From positions 248,001 to 312,000 of the forward strand of contig NZ_REFZ01000003.1 of assembly GCF_003841465.1 (NCBI RefSeq): DNA of 64,000 nucleotides, given 5' to 3'. Source of the stretch: Natrarchaeobius oligotrophus (GTDB lineage: Archaea > Halobacteriota > Halobacteria > Halobacteriales > Natrialbaceae). How positions within the stretch are numbered: position 1 is the first letter of the stretch; each line of letters opens with the position of its first letter. Position numbers and translations under genes: made by a program. The notes under the pieces were generated by a model that was not told where the DNA came from, did no database searches, and saw only the letters and a list, made by a program, of their open reading frames with translations. This document shows, piece by piece, positions 8,151-53,901 of the stretch.

Positions 8151-8244
8151 TCCTGTAGAGAGGCGCTCAAGGGAGATAACCTAGTCTGTCCACGGTTGGG
8201 ACGATACTCAGTCCCCGTCGCTATTCTTCCGCAGATGCCAGTAA

Positions 8245-8252
8245 TTATATTA
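8245..8252 (+). promoter_or_regulatory. TATA-like box of structured RNA copy B
   Basis: TTATATTA is centred 27 nt before the first GGAAG strand at 8276, the same distance as in copies A and C. The element starts just outside the right end of the IS630 insertion, so the promoter itself is intact. Confidence 0.5.
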
Positions 8253-8275
8253 TCGACCAGTCCGATTGTTAGGAT

Positions 8276-8417
8276 GGAAGTCGTTCGCTCCGAAACGCGA
8301 CCGCGTGGGCGTGCACGTGAAAACGCCCCGGGTGGTGAGGCACCCGAGGCGAGCGGCTTCCAAGCGTACACTCGGTTGCCATGCTTACGTTCCTGCCACC
8401 GAGACAAAAAGGTCTCG
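8276..8417 (+). ncRNA. Structured leader RNA, copy B
   Basis: The first strand GGAAGTC (8276-8282) pairs with GGCTTCC (8355-8361), allowing one G-U pair, and encloses two hairpins. These are GGGCGT/ACGCCC (8307-8328) and CGGGTG/CACCCG with a 6-nt loop (8329-8346). A third hairpin, CGAGAC/GTCTCG (8400-8417), lies inside the following small ORF. Compared with copy A both inner stems have changed sequence on both sides and still pair. The competing strand next to the ATG is GGTTGCC here, so the alternative pairing seen in A and C is weak in this copy. Confidence 0.6.
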
Positions 8418-8563
8418 CACGACGGCTCAGTATCGCACGCGAAAACCGAACGACCACGGACGGCGCTCTCACGGACTCGAGCGACCGTGAGCGACGGCGC
8501 GACGCCCGAGAGAGCGGCGAACGACCGAGCATTGACCGTCGGCCACGGGGGTGGCGGCGATGA
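8381..8563 (+). CDS. Small basic ORF upstream of zinc-finger gene (copy B)
   Basis: This 60-residue arginine-rich ORF starts at the ATG after the structured leader and ends in ATGA shared with the zinc-finger gene at 8560. Its first residues, MLTFLPPRQKGLARR, match MFAFLPARYKRLARP of the small ORF at 52492 (FLP, R, K and LAR conserved). The conserved bases also form the third hairpin of the RNA, so the similarity may reflect RNA rather than peptide selection. The rest diverges. Function unknown; translational coupling to the next gene is likely. Confidence 0.45.
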   Translation: MLTFLPPRQKGLARRLSIARENRTTTDGALTDSSDRERRRDARESGERPSIDRRPRGWRR

Positions 8564-8799
8564 GTTCCGCGAACGACGCGGCCGATACCGCCGGCGTCGA
8601 CCGGCCCGCGACGGTCTGCGACCGCTGTGGCGACCGCCTTCCCGAGGATCGGGTGATCCGCCTCTCGAGCGACCCCTGTCCCGCGCTCGCCGACCGGTAC
8701 GAAGGCGTCGCCGAGACGTGCTGTCCCGACTGCATCGCGGGCATCGGCATGCTCGCGTTCACGGCCGAGGCTCGAGCGTTCGCGGAGACGAGATCGTAG
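8560..8799 (+). CDS. Small zinc-finger protein (copy B)
   Basis: The 79-residue protein has CDRC (C20, C23), C40 and a CCPDC group (C54, C55, C58), enough for one or two zinc sites. Small CPxCG-type zinc-finger proteins are abundant in haloarchaea and mostly uncharacterised. The start at 8560 rather than the in-frame GTG at 8551 was chosen because it forms the ATGA overlap seen at the two other copies. It is the second gene after structured RNA copy B. Confidence 0.6.
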   Translation: MSSANDAADTAGVDRPATVCDRCGDRLPEDRVIRLSSDPCPALADRYEGVAETCCPDCIAGIGMLAFTAEARAFAETRS

Positions 8800-18657: not shown

Positions 18658-20196
18658 ATGTCCTTCAGATATCGCCGCGCAGCCGAGCGGATTCGAAAGC
18701 GGGCGGTATCGTTGGTCGGTACGTTCGTGCTCGCGCTCGCCGTCGGCTACGCGGCGATCACCTCGAGTTCGCGTCCGATGCTGGCGCTCGAACTCGCCGT
18801 TCCGGCTGCGACCGGCTGTGTGCTCCTCTGGTACGGACGGCGCTTCGAGTCGGGACCGAACGAACGGCGGCGGGCGACGGTCGTCGCGAGCTGGGCCGTC
18901 GGTGGCGGCCTCGTCGCCGTATCGACGGTCGCCTGGAGCGCGATTCTCTCGGGTCTCGGATCGGCGGGGTCCGTCGGCGCGTCGGGTCCTCTGTTGGCGA
19001 CCGTCTTCAGCGTCGGCGTCGGCGGCGGCACAACGGTCGGACACCTCGTCACCGAACGCTCTCGCGATCGCCGCGAGGCCGAGCGGCTGGCGGCGGCGAT
19101 CGACACCGCGATGGACGGGATCGCGGTCGTCGTAGACGGCGAACACGTCTTCGTGAACGACGCTTACGCGTCGCTGTACGGCGTTCGGAGTGCGGACGCG
19201 CTCGAAGGACGGCGGTGGGAGGAGCTGTACGCCGACGAGTCGCTCGCGACGATCGAACGGGAAGCGTTGTCCGCGCTCTCGCGACGAGGCTGCTGGCAGG
19301 GGACGGTGACGGGAACCCGCGTCGACGGGACGACGTTCCAACAGGAGGTTACGATGACCGCACGCGACCGCGCCGAAGGCTACGTCGTGGTAGCCCGCGA
19401 CGTCACGGCCCGTCTCGATCGCGAACAGCGGATTCAGGTGTTGAATCGCGTGCTCAGACACAACCTTCGAAACGCGTTCACCGTCGTCCGCGGCCACGCG
19501 AACCTCATCGCCGAGCGAGCGCCGGCGCTGGAGGATCGACACGTCGAGCCGATCCGCGAGGAGATCGACGAGCTGCTCGCGACGGCCGACAAGGCCCGCA
19601 GCGTCGAGCGACGGCTCGAGGGACGGGAGCGAACGAAACCGATCGAGCCGACCGACGCCGTCCGCTCGGTCGCAGAGCGAGCGAACGCCGCCTATCCGTC
19701 GGTTCGGATCGTCTCCAGAACCGAGGCGGTGGGTGGCGAGTCGATAGCGACGCCGGTCGACGGTGCCGTCGTGGACGCGCTGAACGAACTCGTCGACAAC
19801 GCGGTCGAACACCGCGGCGATCGTCCCGAATCGACGCGAACCGACGCCGCGAGCGTCGACGACCGCGACCCGCCGACCGTCGAGGTCGGCGTTCGAACCG
19901 CCGGCGATCGCCTCGAGTTCACCGTCGCGGACGACGGCGACGGCATCCCCGAGTCCGAACGGAATGCGGTCCTCGACGGCGAGGAGACGCAGCTGGTTCA
20001 CGGCTCGGGCCTCGGCCTCTGGTTCGTCAACTGGATCGCCGCGAGCGCGGGCGGCGAGGTGCGCTTTGCCGACCGCTCGTCCGGTGGAACGATCGTGACG
20101 CTCTCGTTCCCGCGGGGAAGCGACGATCGGAGCGAGCGAAACTGGCCGCAGCCGTCCGGCGGCGAAGGAGTGGCGGCGGACGGAACGGCTCGATAA
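18658..20196 (+). CDS. Membrane PAS histidine kinase
   Basis: The 512-residue protein has three or four N-terminal membrane helices (within residues 15-125) and a PAS domain (about 140-260: MDGIAVVVDGEHVFVNDAYASLYG). The kinase core is of the haloarchaeal type, with the H-box NRVLRHNLRNAFTVVRGHA, the N-box LNELVDNAVEH and G-boxes DDGDGIPESE and GSGLGLWFVNWI. The start ATG at 18658 was preferred over the upstream TTG because the segment between them is polar and a TATA-like CATTTATC lies upstream. The signal is unknown and no response regulator gene is adjacent. Confidence 0.9.
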   Translation: MSFRYRRAAERIRKRAVSLVGTFVLALAVGYAAITSSSRPMLALELAVPAATGCVLLWYGRRFESGPNERRRATVVASWAVGGGLVAVSTVAWSAILSGLGSAGSVGASGPLLATVFSVGVGGGTTVGHLVTERSRDRREAERLAAAIDTAMDGIAVVVDGEHVFVNDAYASLYGVRSADALEGRRWEELYADESLATIEREALSALSRRGCWQGTVTGTRVDGTTFQQEVTMTARDRAEGYVVVARDVTARLDREQRIQVLNRVLRHNLRNAFTVVRGHANLIAERAPALEDRHVEPIREEIDELLATADKARSVERRLEGRERTKPIEPTDAVRSVAERANAAYPSVRIVSRTEAVGGESIATPVDGAVVDALNELVDNAVEHRGDRPESTRTDAASVDDRDPPTVEVGVRTAGDRLEFTVADDGDGIPESERNAVLDGEETQLVHGSGLGLWFVNWIAASAGGEVRFADRSSGGTIVTLSFPRGSDDRSERNWPQPSGGEGVAADGTAR

Positions 20197-51094: not shown

Positions 51095-52354
51095 ATGAGC
51101 GGGGAGCCGCCGGTCACCGCGGCGGACGTCGAGGCGGCCCGCGAGCGCATCGGGGGCGTCGTCCACCGGACGCCGCTCGACACCTCCCGGACGTTCGCCG
51201 ACCTCTCCGGCGCGGCGTCGGTCGGGCTCAAACTCGAGAACGTCCAGCGGACGGGCTCGTTCAAGATCCGCGGCGCGTACAACCGGATGGCCCAGCTCTC
51301 GCCGGCCGAGCGCGAGGCGGGCGTCATCGCCTCGAGCGCGGGCAACCACGCCCAGGGCGTCGCGCTGGCCGGCCGGCTGCTGGACGTCGAGACGACGATC
51401 GTCGTCCCCGAGGTGACGCCCGCGGCGAAGATCGAGGCCACCCGCGGCTACGGGGCCGACGTCGTCGTCGAGGGCGACATCTACGAGCGATCCTACGAGC
51501 ACGCACTCGAGCGCGCCGACGAGACCGGCGAAACGTTCGTCCACCCGTTCGACGACGAGGCGATCGTCGCCGGCCAGGGGACCGTCGGCCTCGAGCTGCT
51601 CGAGCAGTTCCCCGACGTCGACACCGTCCTCGTCGCGATCGGCGGCGGCGGGCTGATCTCCGGCATCGGCACCGCGGTGAAGGCCCACGAGCCCGATACT
51701 CGCGTGATCGGGGTTCAGCCGGAGGGCGCGCTGCACGCGAAGCCGTCGCTCGAGCGCGGCGAGATCCACGAACTGCCGGACGTCGACACCGTCGCCGAGG
51801 GCATCGCCGACACGCGGCTGCTCGAGACGACGTTCGCGGTGGCCCGCGAGGTGGTCGACGACGTCGTCGGGGTGACCGACCGGGAGCTCGCGACGGCCGT
51901 GACCCTGCTGGCCGAGCGCGCGAAGACCGTCGCCGAGAGCGCGGGCGCGGCCCCGCTCGCCGCGGCGCTCTCCGACGAGGTGGACCTCTCGGACGAGCGC
52001 GTCGCCGTCGTGATCTCCGGGGGCAACGTCGACCTCACCGAGCACGCGGAGCTCACCCGGACCGGCCTTTCGGAACTCGGGCGGTACGCCGAGGCCCGAC
52101 TGGCGCTCGAGGGGTGGCCGACGACGGTCGGGGACGTCGTCGAGGCCGTCGAGCGTGAGGGCGCGAAACTCGACGTCCTCGAGCGGGCGCGCCGCGGCCC
52201 CCGCGACCCGCCCAACCGAACGCCCGTGACGGTCGGCCTCGAGGGAAGCGGCCCGGACCACCTCGCGTCGGTGCTCGAAACGATCGGCGGGCTGTCCGGG
52301 GTCGAGGTGCTCGAGTCGCCCGGCGGCAACAATATCCACTCGGAAATACAGTAG
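51095..52354 (+). CDS. ilvA: Threonine ammonia-lyase (threonine dehydratase)
   Basis: The 419-residue protein has the PLP-lysine segment TGSFKIRGAYN, the cofactor motif SSAGNHAQGVAL and the glycine-rich IGGGGLISGI, followed by a C-terminal ACT-like regulatory domain (about 335-419). It makes 2-oxobutanoate for isoleucine synthesis and is probably feedback-regulated through the ACT domain. Its stop is followed within 2 nt by the TATA-like box of structured RNA copy C. Confidence 0.9.
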   Translation: MSGEPPVTAADVEAARERIGGVVHRTPLDTSRTFADLSGAASVGLKLENVQRTGSFKIRGAYNRMAQLSPAEREAGVIASSAGNHAQGVALAGRLLDVETTIVVPEVTPAAKIEATRGYGADVVVEGDIYERSYEHALERADETGETFVHPFDDEAIVAGQGTVGLELLEQFPDVDTVLVAIGGGGLISGIGTAVKAHEPDTRVIGVQPEGALHAKPSLERGEIHELPDVDTVAEGIADTRLLETTFAVAREVVDDVVGVTDRELATAVTLLAERAKTVAESAGAAPLAAALSDEVDLSDERVAVVISGGNVDLTEHAELTRTGLSELGRYAEARLALEGWPTTVGDVVEAVEREGAKLDVLERARRGPRDPPNRTPVTVGLEGSGPDHLASVLETIGGLSGVEVLESPGGNNIHSEIQ

Positions 52355-52362
52355 ATATAAAT
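52355..52362 (+). promoter_or_regulatory. TATA-like box of structured RNA copy C
   Basis: ATATAAAT starts directly after the ilvA stop and is centred 27 nt before the first GGAAG strand at 52386, the same spacing as in copies A and B. It is the clearest TATA box of the three. Confidence 0.6.
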
Positions 52363-52385
52363 ATCTATTCGACGAATTGATCTCT

Positions 52386-52528
52386 GGAAGCTAGCTCCAA
52401 GAAGGCGCGGGGGCGTGCGCTGAAACGCCCCGGGTGCTGGAACACCCGAAGCTGGCTTCCAACCCATTACGGCTATAAAGCCACGGAAGCCATGTTTGCA
52501 TTCCTGCCCGCGAGATATAAACGTCTCG
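52386..52528 (+). ncRNA. Structured leader RNA, copy C
   Basis: GGAAGCT (52386-52392) pairs with GGCTTCC (52454-52460), with one G-U pair, around hairpins GGGCGT/ACGCCC (within 52410-52431) and CGGGTG/CACCCG with a 6-nt loop (52431-52448). A third hairpin, CGAGA/TCTCG (52511-52528), lies in the following small ORF. GGCTTCC can also pair perfectly with GGAAGCC at 52485-52491, which touches the ATG at 52492. The two folds are mutually exclusive. This copy lies in an ordinary chromosomal context, directly after ilvA, with no transposase gene near it. Confidence 0.65.
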
Positions 52529-52644
52529 CACGACCACAGTACCGTTCACGAGCCAGAAGCGACCGCCAGCGGGCCGGAACGGCCTCTCGACCGACGGGAT
52601 CGCAGCCGCCTCGAGCGGCCGGCCGAGTCGAGGGGCGGCGATGA
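52492..52644 (+). CDS. Small basic ORF upstream of zinc-finger gene (copy C)
   Basis: The 50-residue arginine-rich ORF starts at the ATG that follows the GGAAGCC strand and ends in ATGA shared with the gene at 52641. Its N-terminus MFAFLPARYKRLARP matches that of the copy B ORF. It may be a leader peptide. It could also be a chance frame over the RNA, since the matched residues coincide with conserved RNA bases. Confidence 0.45.
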   Translation: MFAFLPARYKRLARPQYRSRARSDRQRAGTASRPTGSQPPRAAGRVEGRR

Positions 52645-52835
52645 CGGGCTGTTTCTGGGCGGACGACCCGTTCGAGTCCGTCGACCCCGACGGCGACGAC
52701 GACGCCCCGACGCGCTGTCCGCGCTGTGGCACTCCCATCGCCATCGTCTCGAGCACCGGCCCGACCACCCACGTCGCCACCCCCTGTGGCTGTCGAGTTC
52801 CCGGCGACGTCCTCGAGCGCGACGGCTCGCGGTGA
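52641..52835 (+). CDS. Small zinc-finger protein (copy C)
   Basis: The 64-residue protein contains CPRC (C26, C29) and CGC (C49, C51) and an N-terminal GCFW, consistent with one small zinc site. The start overlaps the upstream small ORF as ATGA. It resembles the abundant CPxCG-type small zinc-finger proteins of haloarchaea. Sequence outside the cysteines differs from the copy B protein, so the two are at best distant relatives joined by the same leader RNA. Confidence 0.6.
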   Translation: MTGCFWADDPFESVDPDGDDDAPTRCPRCGTPIAIVSSTGPTTHVATPCGCRVPGDVLERDGSR

Positions 52836-53211: not shown

Positions 53212-53571
53212 ATGCCCATCGACATCGAGCGTTTCGAGGAAGACCCGGTCCGGGAACTTCGAGCAAGCGGGCAAACGAACGCGGAAGAAATCCTCTCCTT
53301 CCTGGCATCATCGCCAGATCGTGCGTTCACACCGAAGGAAATTCACGAAGCGACCGACGTCGCACGCGGTAGCGTCGGCGTCGTCCTGTCTCGGTTAGAA
53401 GACCGCGGACTCGTCCGTCACCGCGGAGAATACTGGGCAATTGCCGACGTCGACGATATCGAGAAGACACTCAACGCGATGGCGACCGCGCGTGCGGCGA
53501 CCGATCGACTCGGTCCGGAAGATCCCGATGAGTGGGGTCCCGGTATAGAGACGACCACCGAGGACGAGTAA
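53212..53571 (+). CDS. Winged-helix antitoxin or regulator of a MazF-like toxin
   Basis: The 119-residue protein has a winged-helix domain (about 20-85: NAEEILSFLASSPDRAFTPKEIHEATDVARGSVGVVLSRLEDRGLVRHRGEYWAI). A short helical tail (ADVDDIEKTLNAMATARAATDRLG...) could wrap the toxin. Its stop is immediately followed by the start of the MazF-like gene (TAAATG). In haloarchaea such wHTH-MazF pairs are known. The phased ATTAC boxes upstream suggest autoregulation. Confidence 0.8.
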   Translation: MPIDIERFEEDPVRELRASGQTNAEEILSFLASSPDRAFTPKEIHEATDVARGSVGVVLSRLEDRGLVRHRGEYWAIADVDDIEKTLNAMATARAATDRLGPEDPDEWGPGIETTTEDE

Positions 53572-53901
53572 ATGGCCGGAAAGCAAGGGGAGGTCTGGTG
53601 GGGTCCAGCGCCACACAAAGCTAATTCTGCCTATCGGCCGTGGCTCGTCGTAAGCGATACGTCACACCCGTTTGGATCCGAAGAGTGTATCGCCATCGGG
53701 ATGACGACACAGGATCATCCAGACGGAATCGCCGTTCCCGACGAGGCGTGGGTTCGGGGCGGATCAAAGAAGGACGCATTCGTTTCTCCCTGGTACGTGA
53801 CGACGATCAAGCAAAGAGACCTCGACAACCAACAAGGAACGCTCGCGAACTCACTCGTCGCAGACGCTATCGAAGCTCTGCACGGGTACACGTCGCTCTG
53901 A
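53572..53901 (+). CDS. PemK/MazF-like toxin
   Basis: The 109-residue protein has the MazF/PemK fold pattern: GEVWWGPAPHKANSAYRPWLVVSD near the start and a later SPWYVTTIKQRDLDNQQGTLANSLVADAIEAL. It is probably an mRNA interferase neutralised by the upstream winged-helix protein. The RP-x-LVVSD segment is typical. It directly abuts the antitoxin gene. Confidence 0.8.
   Translation: MAGKQGEVWWGPAPHKANSAYRPWLVVSDTSHPFGSEECIAIGMTTQDHPDGIAVPDEAWVRGGSKKDAFVSPWYVTTIKQRDLDNQQGTLANSLVADAIEALHGYTSL

Follow-up and report, generated by a model that had tools for sequence, protein, structure and literature searches.

Three sites in the window

The window, a 64-kb stretch of the Natrarchaeobius oligotrophus genome, contains three sites at which a structured RNA precedes overlapping small genes, designated site 1 (position 91), site 2 (8276), and site 3 (52386). 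All their features lie on the plus strand. Direct reading finds the same ordered set at all three, as the preliminary description had it: GGAAG, two adjacent hairpins, GGCTTCC, an ATG, a third hairpin, and a small ORF ending in ATGA. The stems named there are all present in the sequence. The count of three copies falls short, as the three sites are real but the genome holds 20 copies in total. The hairpins follow the order listed, but a fourth, P4, usually lies between GGCTTCC and the ATG. GGAAG pairs with CTTCC to form a closing stem, P1, and the unit is therefore a three-way junction. The full order is the junction (P1, P2, and P3), usually P4, the start codon, P5 some 20 nt into the first ORF, and finally the ATGA at which the next gene overlaps. 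The RNA folds better than its dinucleotide shuffles each time, with z scores of −3.8, −4.4, and −3.2 for the three sites.

At site 1, a TATA-like box (CTATTTAATG, 61–70) is located about 28 nt upstream of the RNA start. The RNA (90–233) is of the TnpB type T3 and is identified by sequence, fold, and an independent covariance-model match. Its stems are P1 (92–98/153–159), P2 (107–113/122–128), P3 (129–134/141–146), P4 (approximately 163–166/172–175), and P5 (206–211/221–226). The sequence GAAGCC with the ATG of the leader ORF (181–189) complements the 3′ strand of P1 and could form an alternative helix, as sequence and permutation tests indicate. The leader ORF (187–453) begins with MRKDSPRAHNCRAHEPGV, a start shared with loci L294, L295, and L300, and ends in an ATGA overlap. 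A low-complexity ORF (450–635) separates it from a compact TnpB-like protein of 233 residues (628–1329), which matches Pfam PF07282 (6e-12) and has many relatives.

Site 2 carries a CAGTA/TATA promoter (AGTAATTATATTAT, 8240–8253) and an RNA (8274–8423) supported by fold and covariance model. P1 extends from 8276 to 8361 and encloses P2 (8307–8312/8323–8328) and P3 (8330–8334/8341–8345); P5 lies at 8400–8405/8412–8417. The leader ORF (MLTFLPPRQKGLARR, 8381–8563) overlaps by ATGA the gene of a type A zinc-ribbon protein (8560–8799). Upstream of two copies in this genome, L003 and L012, lie similar stretches of 842 nt in opposite orientation, possibly an insertion sequence beside site 2.

At site 3, a TATA box (GATATAAATA, 52353–52362) precedes an RNA (52384–52534) identified by sequence, fold, and covariance model. 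Its stems are P1 (52386–52395/52451–52460), P2 (approximately 52410–52416/52425–52431), P3 (52432–52436/52443–52447), and P5 (52510–52515/52524–52529). GGAAGCC and the leader ATG directly after it occupy 52485–52494, and GGAAGCC is the exact complement of GGCTTCC, the 3′ strand of P1. The leader ORF (MFAFLPARYKRLAR, 52492–52644) is followed by a type B zinc-ribbon protein (CPRCGTPIA...PCGCR, 52641–52835). The linked genes are thus those first described, a TnpB-like gene at site 1 and zinc proteins at sites 2 and 3, except that the TnpB-like gene is the third ORF of its site.

Two other features of the window were seen. Directly 3′ of site 3 (53212–53901), a winged-helix-like protein is immediately followed by a small MazF/PemK-like protein, and by inspection the two look like a toxin–antitoxin pair. 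A tRNA-Ala (CGC) of 97 nt lies on the minus strand (19788–19884), and its length suggests an intron.

Copies, structure, and promoter of the RNA

The covariance model R1 was trained on 18 copies from the N. oligotrophus genome, with site 1 left out. In this genome R1 finds the 20 copies, which are separated from all else by a gap between E values of 5e-9 and 0.02. Site 1 is recovered independently (E 7.6e-11), and a search of the genome with site 3 as a DNA query also returns many matches. The further copies that the preliminary description proposed to look for are found in quantity across the family and, in diverged form, across the order, with E values down to 1e-43. Within the Natrialbaceae the copies are dense, reaching 34 per genome, and the named matches of a pattern search fall mostly in Natrinema, Natrialba, Halopiger, Halovivax, Natrarchaeobius, and similar genera. 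Order-wide, 103 of 392 genomes contain an R1 match. A laxer search of four genomes from other families yields 37, 17, 15, and 10 copies of a diverged form, so that copy number ranges from 0 to 37. The pattern search also returned some bacterial matches and, among viral contigs, 10 matches.

Neither the window nor any of 12 diverged loci has an Rfam match at the gathering score, and a relaxed threshold gives none over the RNA in three loci. A literature search returned no report describing the structure. The RNA is a previously unreported class of a known kind, the cis-regulatory leader RNAs. One type A zinc gene (G000:C8:67799–67971) is broken in two frames with a very weak RNA match (E 3) nearby, and is probably a decaying copy. 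A clean empty site was sought for site 3: a sister species has the ilvA-like gene without the RNA, but downstream synteny is lost.

The structure was evaluated on 99 copies that were not used for training, of which 98 come from other genomes and one (L039) from the same genome. In these copies 95.1% of cells are paired. Double changes occur in 13 of 27 pairs, compared with a mean of 7.2 after shuffling and 4–7 in slid controls. The cells with double changes number 95, against 26.6 after shuffling, and drop clearly when the structure is slid. The proposal of a functional RNA with compensatory stem changes therefore holds on copies that the model had not seen. Swapping partners between copies supports P1 with its extension, P2, P5, and, most strongly, P4, whose arms pair at −6.44 kcal/mol with their own partner and −3.74 kcal/mol with a swapped one (z −10.9); P3 hardly varies among copies. 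In a home-made, R-scape-like test of all pairs, with a null built on the tree, just two pairs passed, and both lie outside the structure. This test is too strict and limited by the alignment, and the helix-level and partner-swap tests were used instead.

On inspection, no unpaired nucleotide is universal apart from an A-rich stretch before the 3′ strand of P2, and the junction sequence is not conserved between classes. Inspection by eye recognised no k-turn. A pseudoknot between the P1–P2 linker and the P2 loop was rejected: the two are complementary in many copies and do not covary (z −0.7). Frameshifting by −1 at AAAAAG in P5 was also rejected on inspection, as the slippery run is missing from type B copies.

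Of 149 upstream regions, 112 have a TATA-like element that starts 28 or 29 nt ahead of the RNA. In addition, a CAGTA box precedes the TATA in 63 of 120 family copies, compared with 2–5 at control positions. The position of the TATA box places the 5′ end of the transcript at P1, where transcripts should start as judged from these promoter sequences, and P1 would then be closed by the very end of the mRNA. UUUU occurs in only 5 of 119 RNAs, and a hairpin followed by a U run is not found. An attenuator based on an intrinsic terminator is ruled out by the lack of U runs.

Genes linked to the RNA

Of 120 family copies, 97 are followed by a zinc-ribbon ORF at a distance of 33–681 nt (at most 327 nt for 96 of the 97), and for about 20% of family copies no zinc gene can be recognised. 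Conversely, every full-length zinc gene of the two types in N. oligotrophus lies behind an RNA copy (12/12 of type A and 5/5 of type B, or 17/17). The downstream gene type is thus nearly constant, which the preliminary description named as a sign that would support its reading. The type A and type B families are not covered by Pfam or NCBIfam at the cut-offs of those databases. The C(P)XCG zinc-finger micro-proteins of Haloferax volcanii are small haloarchaeal zinc proteins of the same kind, but the parts of their description that we consulted mention no leader RNA (PMC11241148).

The leader ORF has a conserved start of the form M-hydrophobic-x-hydrophobic...K(R/G)(L/P)AR, and 92 of 115 copies have an ATG or GTG overlapping the leader stop. 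Codons 2–6 behave as coding, and the codons over P5 are accounted for by the RNA. Selection on the peptide across P5 is not apparent, as the RNA constraint suffices. No regulatory codon run is seen in the leader ORF. The first ORF of copies in other families directly encodes a zinc protein, a SWIM-like protein, or a PadR-like regulator, and there the start codon opens conserved zinc proteins. In Halopiger djelfimassiliensis (G026), L137, L138, and L139 form an RNA subfamily with the leader MIAYPLPRHKRLARHS and no zinc gene, in which the similar unit runs for about 400 nt. A DUF4157-like gene begins 650–900 nt after the RNA start in L137 and L138, and related sequence lies downstream in L139. 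Downstream of the RNA copy of L054, positions 1920–1959 weakly match the flpD RNA family (E 0.02, below the gathering score).

The TnpB-like protein of site 1 contains the RuvC D/E/D positions and a C-terminal zinc ribbon and lacks an N-terminal REC/WED-like part. It has about 35 relatives of 56–92% identity, and D12, E101, and D186 are invariant across 17 sequences. The compact ORFs are about 225–270 residues long and start near the RuvC-I motif; more distant matches lie in frames of about 400–500 residues. The predicted structure of the protein is poor (mean pLDDT 58.6) and was therefore not used. An R1 match with E below 0.01 is located upstream on the same strand in 12 of 25 relatives, the one in the window included. 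The remaining loci, read directly, have the same architecture with other P1 sequences. With the RNA beside the TnpB-like gene at about 23 loci besides site 1, the association is general.

Among these loci, the leader frame continues into the TnpB-like gene in L287, and none was found in L307. At L289, L290, and L293, what reads as the leader ORF is the beginning of a PadR-like gene, with the TnpB-like gene some 700–1000 nt further downstream. By inspection, the region upstream of the cassette in L291, L292, L295, L297, L300, L302, L303, and L306 resembles a divergent winged-helix gene, and an inverted repeat, CTGACGA..TCGTCAG, is present in several T2 promoters.

A TnpB neighbour calls to mind the omega RNA of IS200/IS605 elements, which is likewise a structured RNA adjoining a TnpB-like gene. 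Omega RNA is found at the 3′ end of tnpB. The RNA described here lies upstream instead and includes the leader start codon, a position that rules out this identity. In addition, the RuvC D/E/D positions are present here without a full-length REC/WED part, and most RNA copies have no TnpB.

A candidate start-codon switch

In nearly every class, the 3′ strand of P1 complements both the 5′ end of the RNA and the nucleotides before the start codon. A third strand competing for P1 thus lies just before the ATG, a feature that goes beyond the preliminary description. The double complementarity persists through the sequence differences among about 29 P1 classes. The five P1 families at TnpB-like genes illustrate this, with 3′ strand and pre-AUG sequences of GGCUUCC/GAAGCC, GGCUCCCGU/ACGGAAGCC, GGCUCGCGU/ACGCAAGCC, GGCCUCCGU/ACGGAAGC, and GGUCGGGUCAC/CCGACC. 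At the sequence level the two pairings would give mutually exclusive helices, a mark of riboswitches.

Permutation tests support the second pairing. In TnpB-type RNAs none of 5000 permutations is as good as the RNAs' own pairs. The z score is −8.3 for 112 unique pairs and −9.4 for the other haloarchaeal families. These permutations leave the tree out, which is mitigated by taking one representative per class (29 in all); z is then −6.8, and 0 of 10,000 permutations are as good. Individual changes point the same way. In the main family, loss of a G from the 3′ strand goes with a changed CC before the AUG (4/4 versus 8/112, Fisher 7e-5). In L294, L295, and L300, leader and P5 resemble those of site 1, and P1 and the pre-AUG nucleotides both belong to another class.

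Comparative sequence evidence establishes the junction, both further hairpins (P4 and P5), the double complementarity, the position of the promoter, and the linked genes. On this basis, each copy probably acts in cis to switch translation from the very 5′ end of its mRNA, hiding or freeing the start codon. In state 1 (ON), the 5′ end and the 3′ strand of P1 would close the three-way junction and leave the start codon of the first ORF free. In state 2 (OFF), the 3′ strand would pair instead with the nucleotides before, and often including, the AUG, and this pairing together with P4 would form one hairpin covering the start codon. The ATGA or GTGA overlap would couple translation of the next gene, usually that of a small zinc-ribbon protein, to that of the first; in other lineages the first ORF would be the zinc protein under the switch. 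We infer that both states occur in cells, that initiation is blocked in state 2, and that coupling passes the effect on downstream.

In nearest-neighbour folding, state 1 is on average about 8–10 kcal/mol more stable than state 2. The default would therefore be ON, and something would be needed to open P1. Blocking the 5′ strand in silico lowers the predicted accessibility of the AUG from 0.44 to 0.23; in several classes it has little or no effect, and in some copies the AUG-hiding hairpin is already the best predicted fold. The most likely candidate trigger is a protein that binds the RNA, which might be the very zinc protein encoded there, acting by autoregulation. A protein is preferred over a metabolite because no conserved pocket of metabolite size and no universal unpaired nucleotides are visible. 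Metal or salt may also act as the trigger. Haloarchaea are described as mostly leaderless, with 5′ UTRs that do not use a Shine-Dalgarno sequence (PMC3986360, PMC4983044). As initiation at such 5′ UTRs proceeds without Shine-Dalgarno pairing, at least in the one species studied (PMC3986360), hiding of the start codon itself would be a sensible target.

The junction might instead bind a small molecule or a metal ion such as zinc, with the competition between P1 and the pre-AUG strand as the expression platform. We regard such a ligand-sensing riboswitch as possible but rather unlikely. The architecture is that of a translational riboswitch, and the cargo consists mostly of zinc proteins across the order. 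Some riboswitch classes also occur in many copies per genome. However, the unconserved junction, with only the A-rich stretch before the 3′ strand of P2 in common, argues against it, some of the cargo is PadR-like, and no transporter or biosynthesis genes were seen among it.

It is improbable that the 5′ end and the pre-AUG nucleotides are merely two single-strand sites for one protein, their pairing with P1 being a by-product. The two are similar in most classes, as this would require, but three observations separate them. The pre-AUG sequence of L155 and L039 tracks the 3′ strand of P1 and not the 5′ strand; in T1 RNAs it complements P1 3′ nucleotides that the 5′ strand leaves unpaired; and where the 5′ strand has a U in a G–U pair, a C still stands before the AUG.

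The wide range in copy number, the existence of tandem copies, and the sharp bounds of the homologous unit, which lie at the promoter and close to where the zinc gene ends, would also suit a dispersed mobile or duplicated cassette. The folds would then belong to the 5′ part of a selfish element and switch nothing. This is also improbable, as the bounds of the unit coincide with those of a transcription unit, the flanks of some copies show synteny between species, no transposase was seen in the unit, and the covariation indicates selection on structure and not spread alone. Chance hairpins ahead of unrelated small genes, common as they are in GC-rich sequence, are refuted by the compensatory changes, the number of copies, and the E values.

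As a start-codon switch, the haloarchaeal RNA would work like a translational riboswitch outside the known Rfam classes. Translational riboswitches, including the fluoride riboswitch of Thermococcus kodakarensis, likewise set the closing stem of a structured 5′ leader against a helix over the translation start. The RNA differs from them in that it matches no Rfam family, shows no conserved ligand pocket, and would cover the start codon in place of the Shine-Dalgarno region. The fluoride riboswitch has been named as the only archaeal riboswitch determined experimentally (PMC8241225). In Sulfolobus, the RNA-binding protein L7Ae controls translation of its own mRNA through a k-turn in the 5′ UTR (PMC5539422). 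The candidate autoregulation here would similarly place an archaeal leader structure in control of its own mRNA, but no k-turn is recognised in it by eye, and the cargo consists of zinc proteins, PadR-like or TnpB-like proteins.

Translational control by structured leaders has been called "not typical" for haloarchaea (PMC3986360, PMC4983044). If the switch operates as proposed, an order-wide RNA family with up to 37 copies per genome would constitute a new route of archaeal gene control, and many unexplained small zinc-finger genes would gain a common candidate regulator. More tentatively, and with the odds against it, the copies could form a general control layer, in which dozens of mRNAs per cell share one start-codon switch and answer a common signal. 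Such a layer would amount to a leader-RNA regulon in a group thought to be without structured leaders. Candidate signals would be metal status, salt, or shortening of the mRNA at its 5′ end, the end that supplies one strand of P1.
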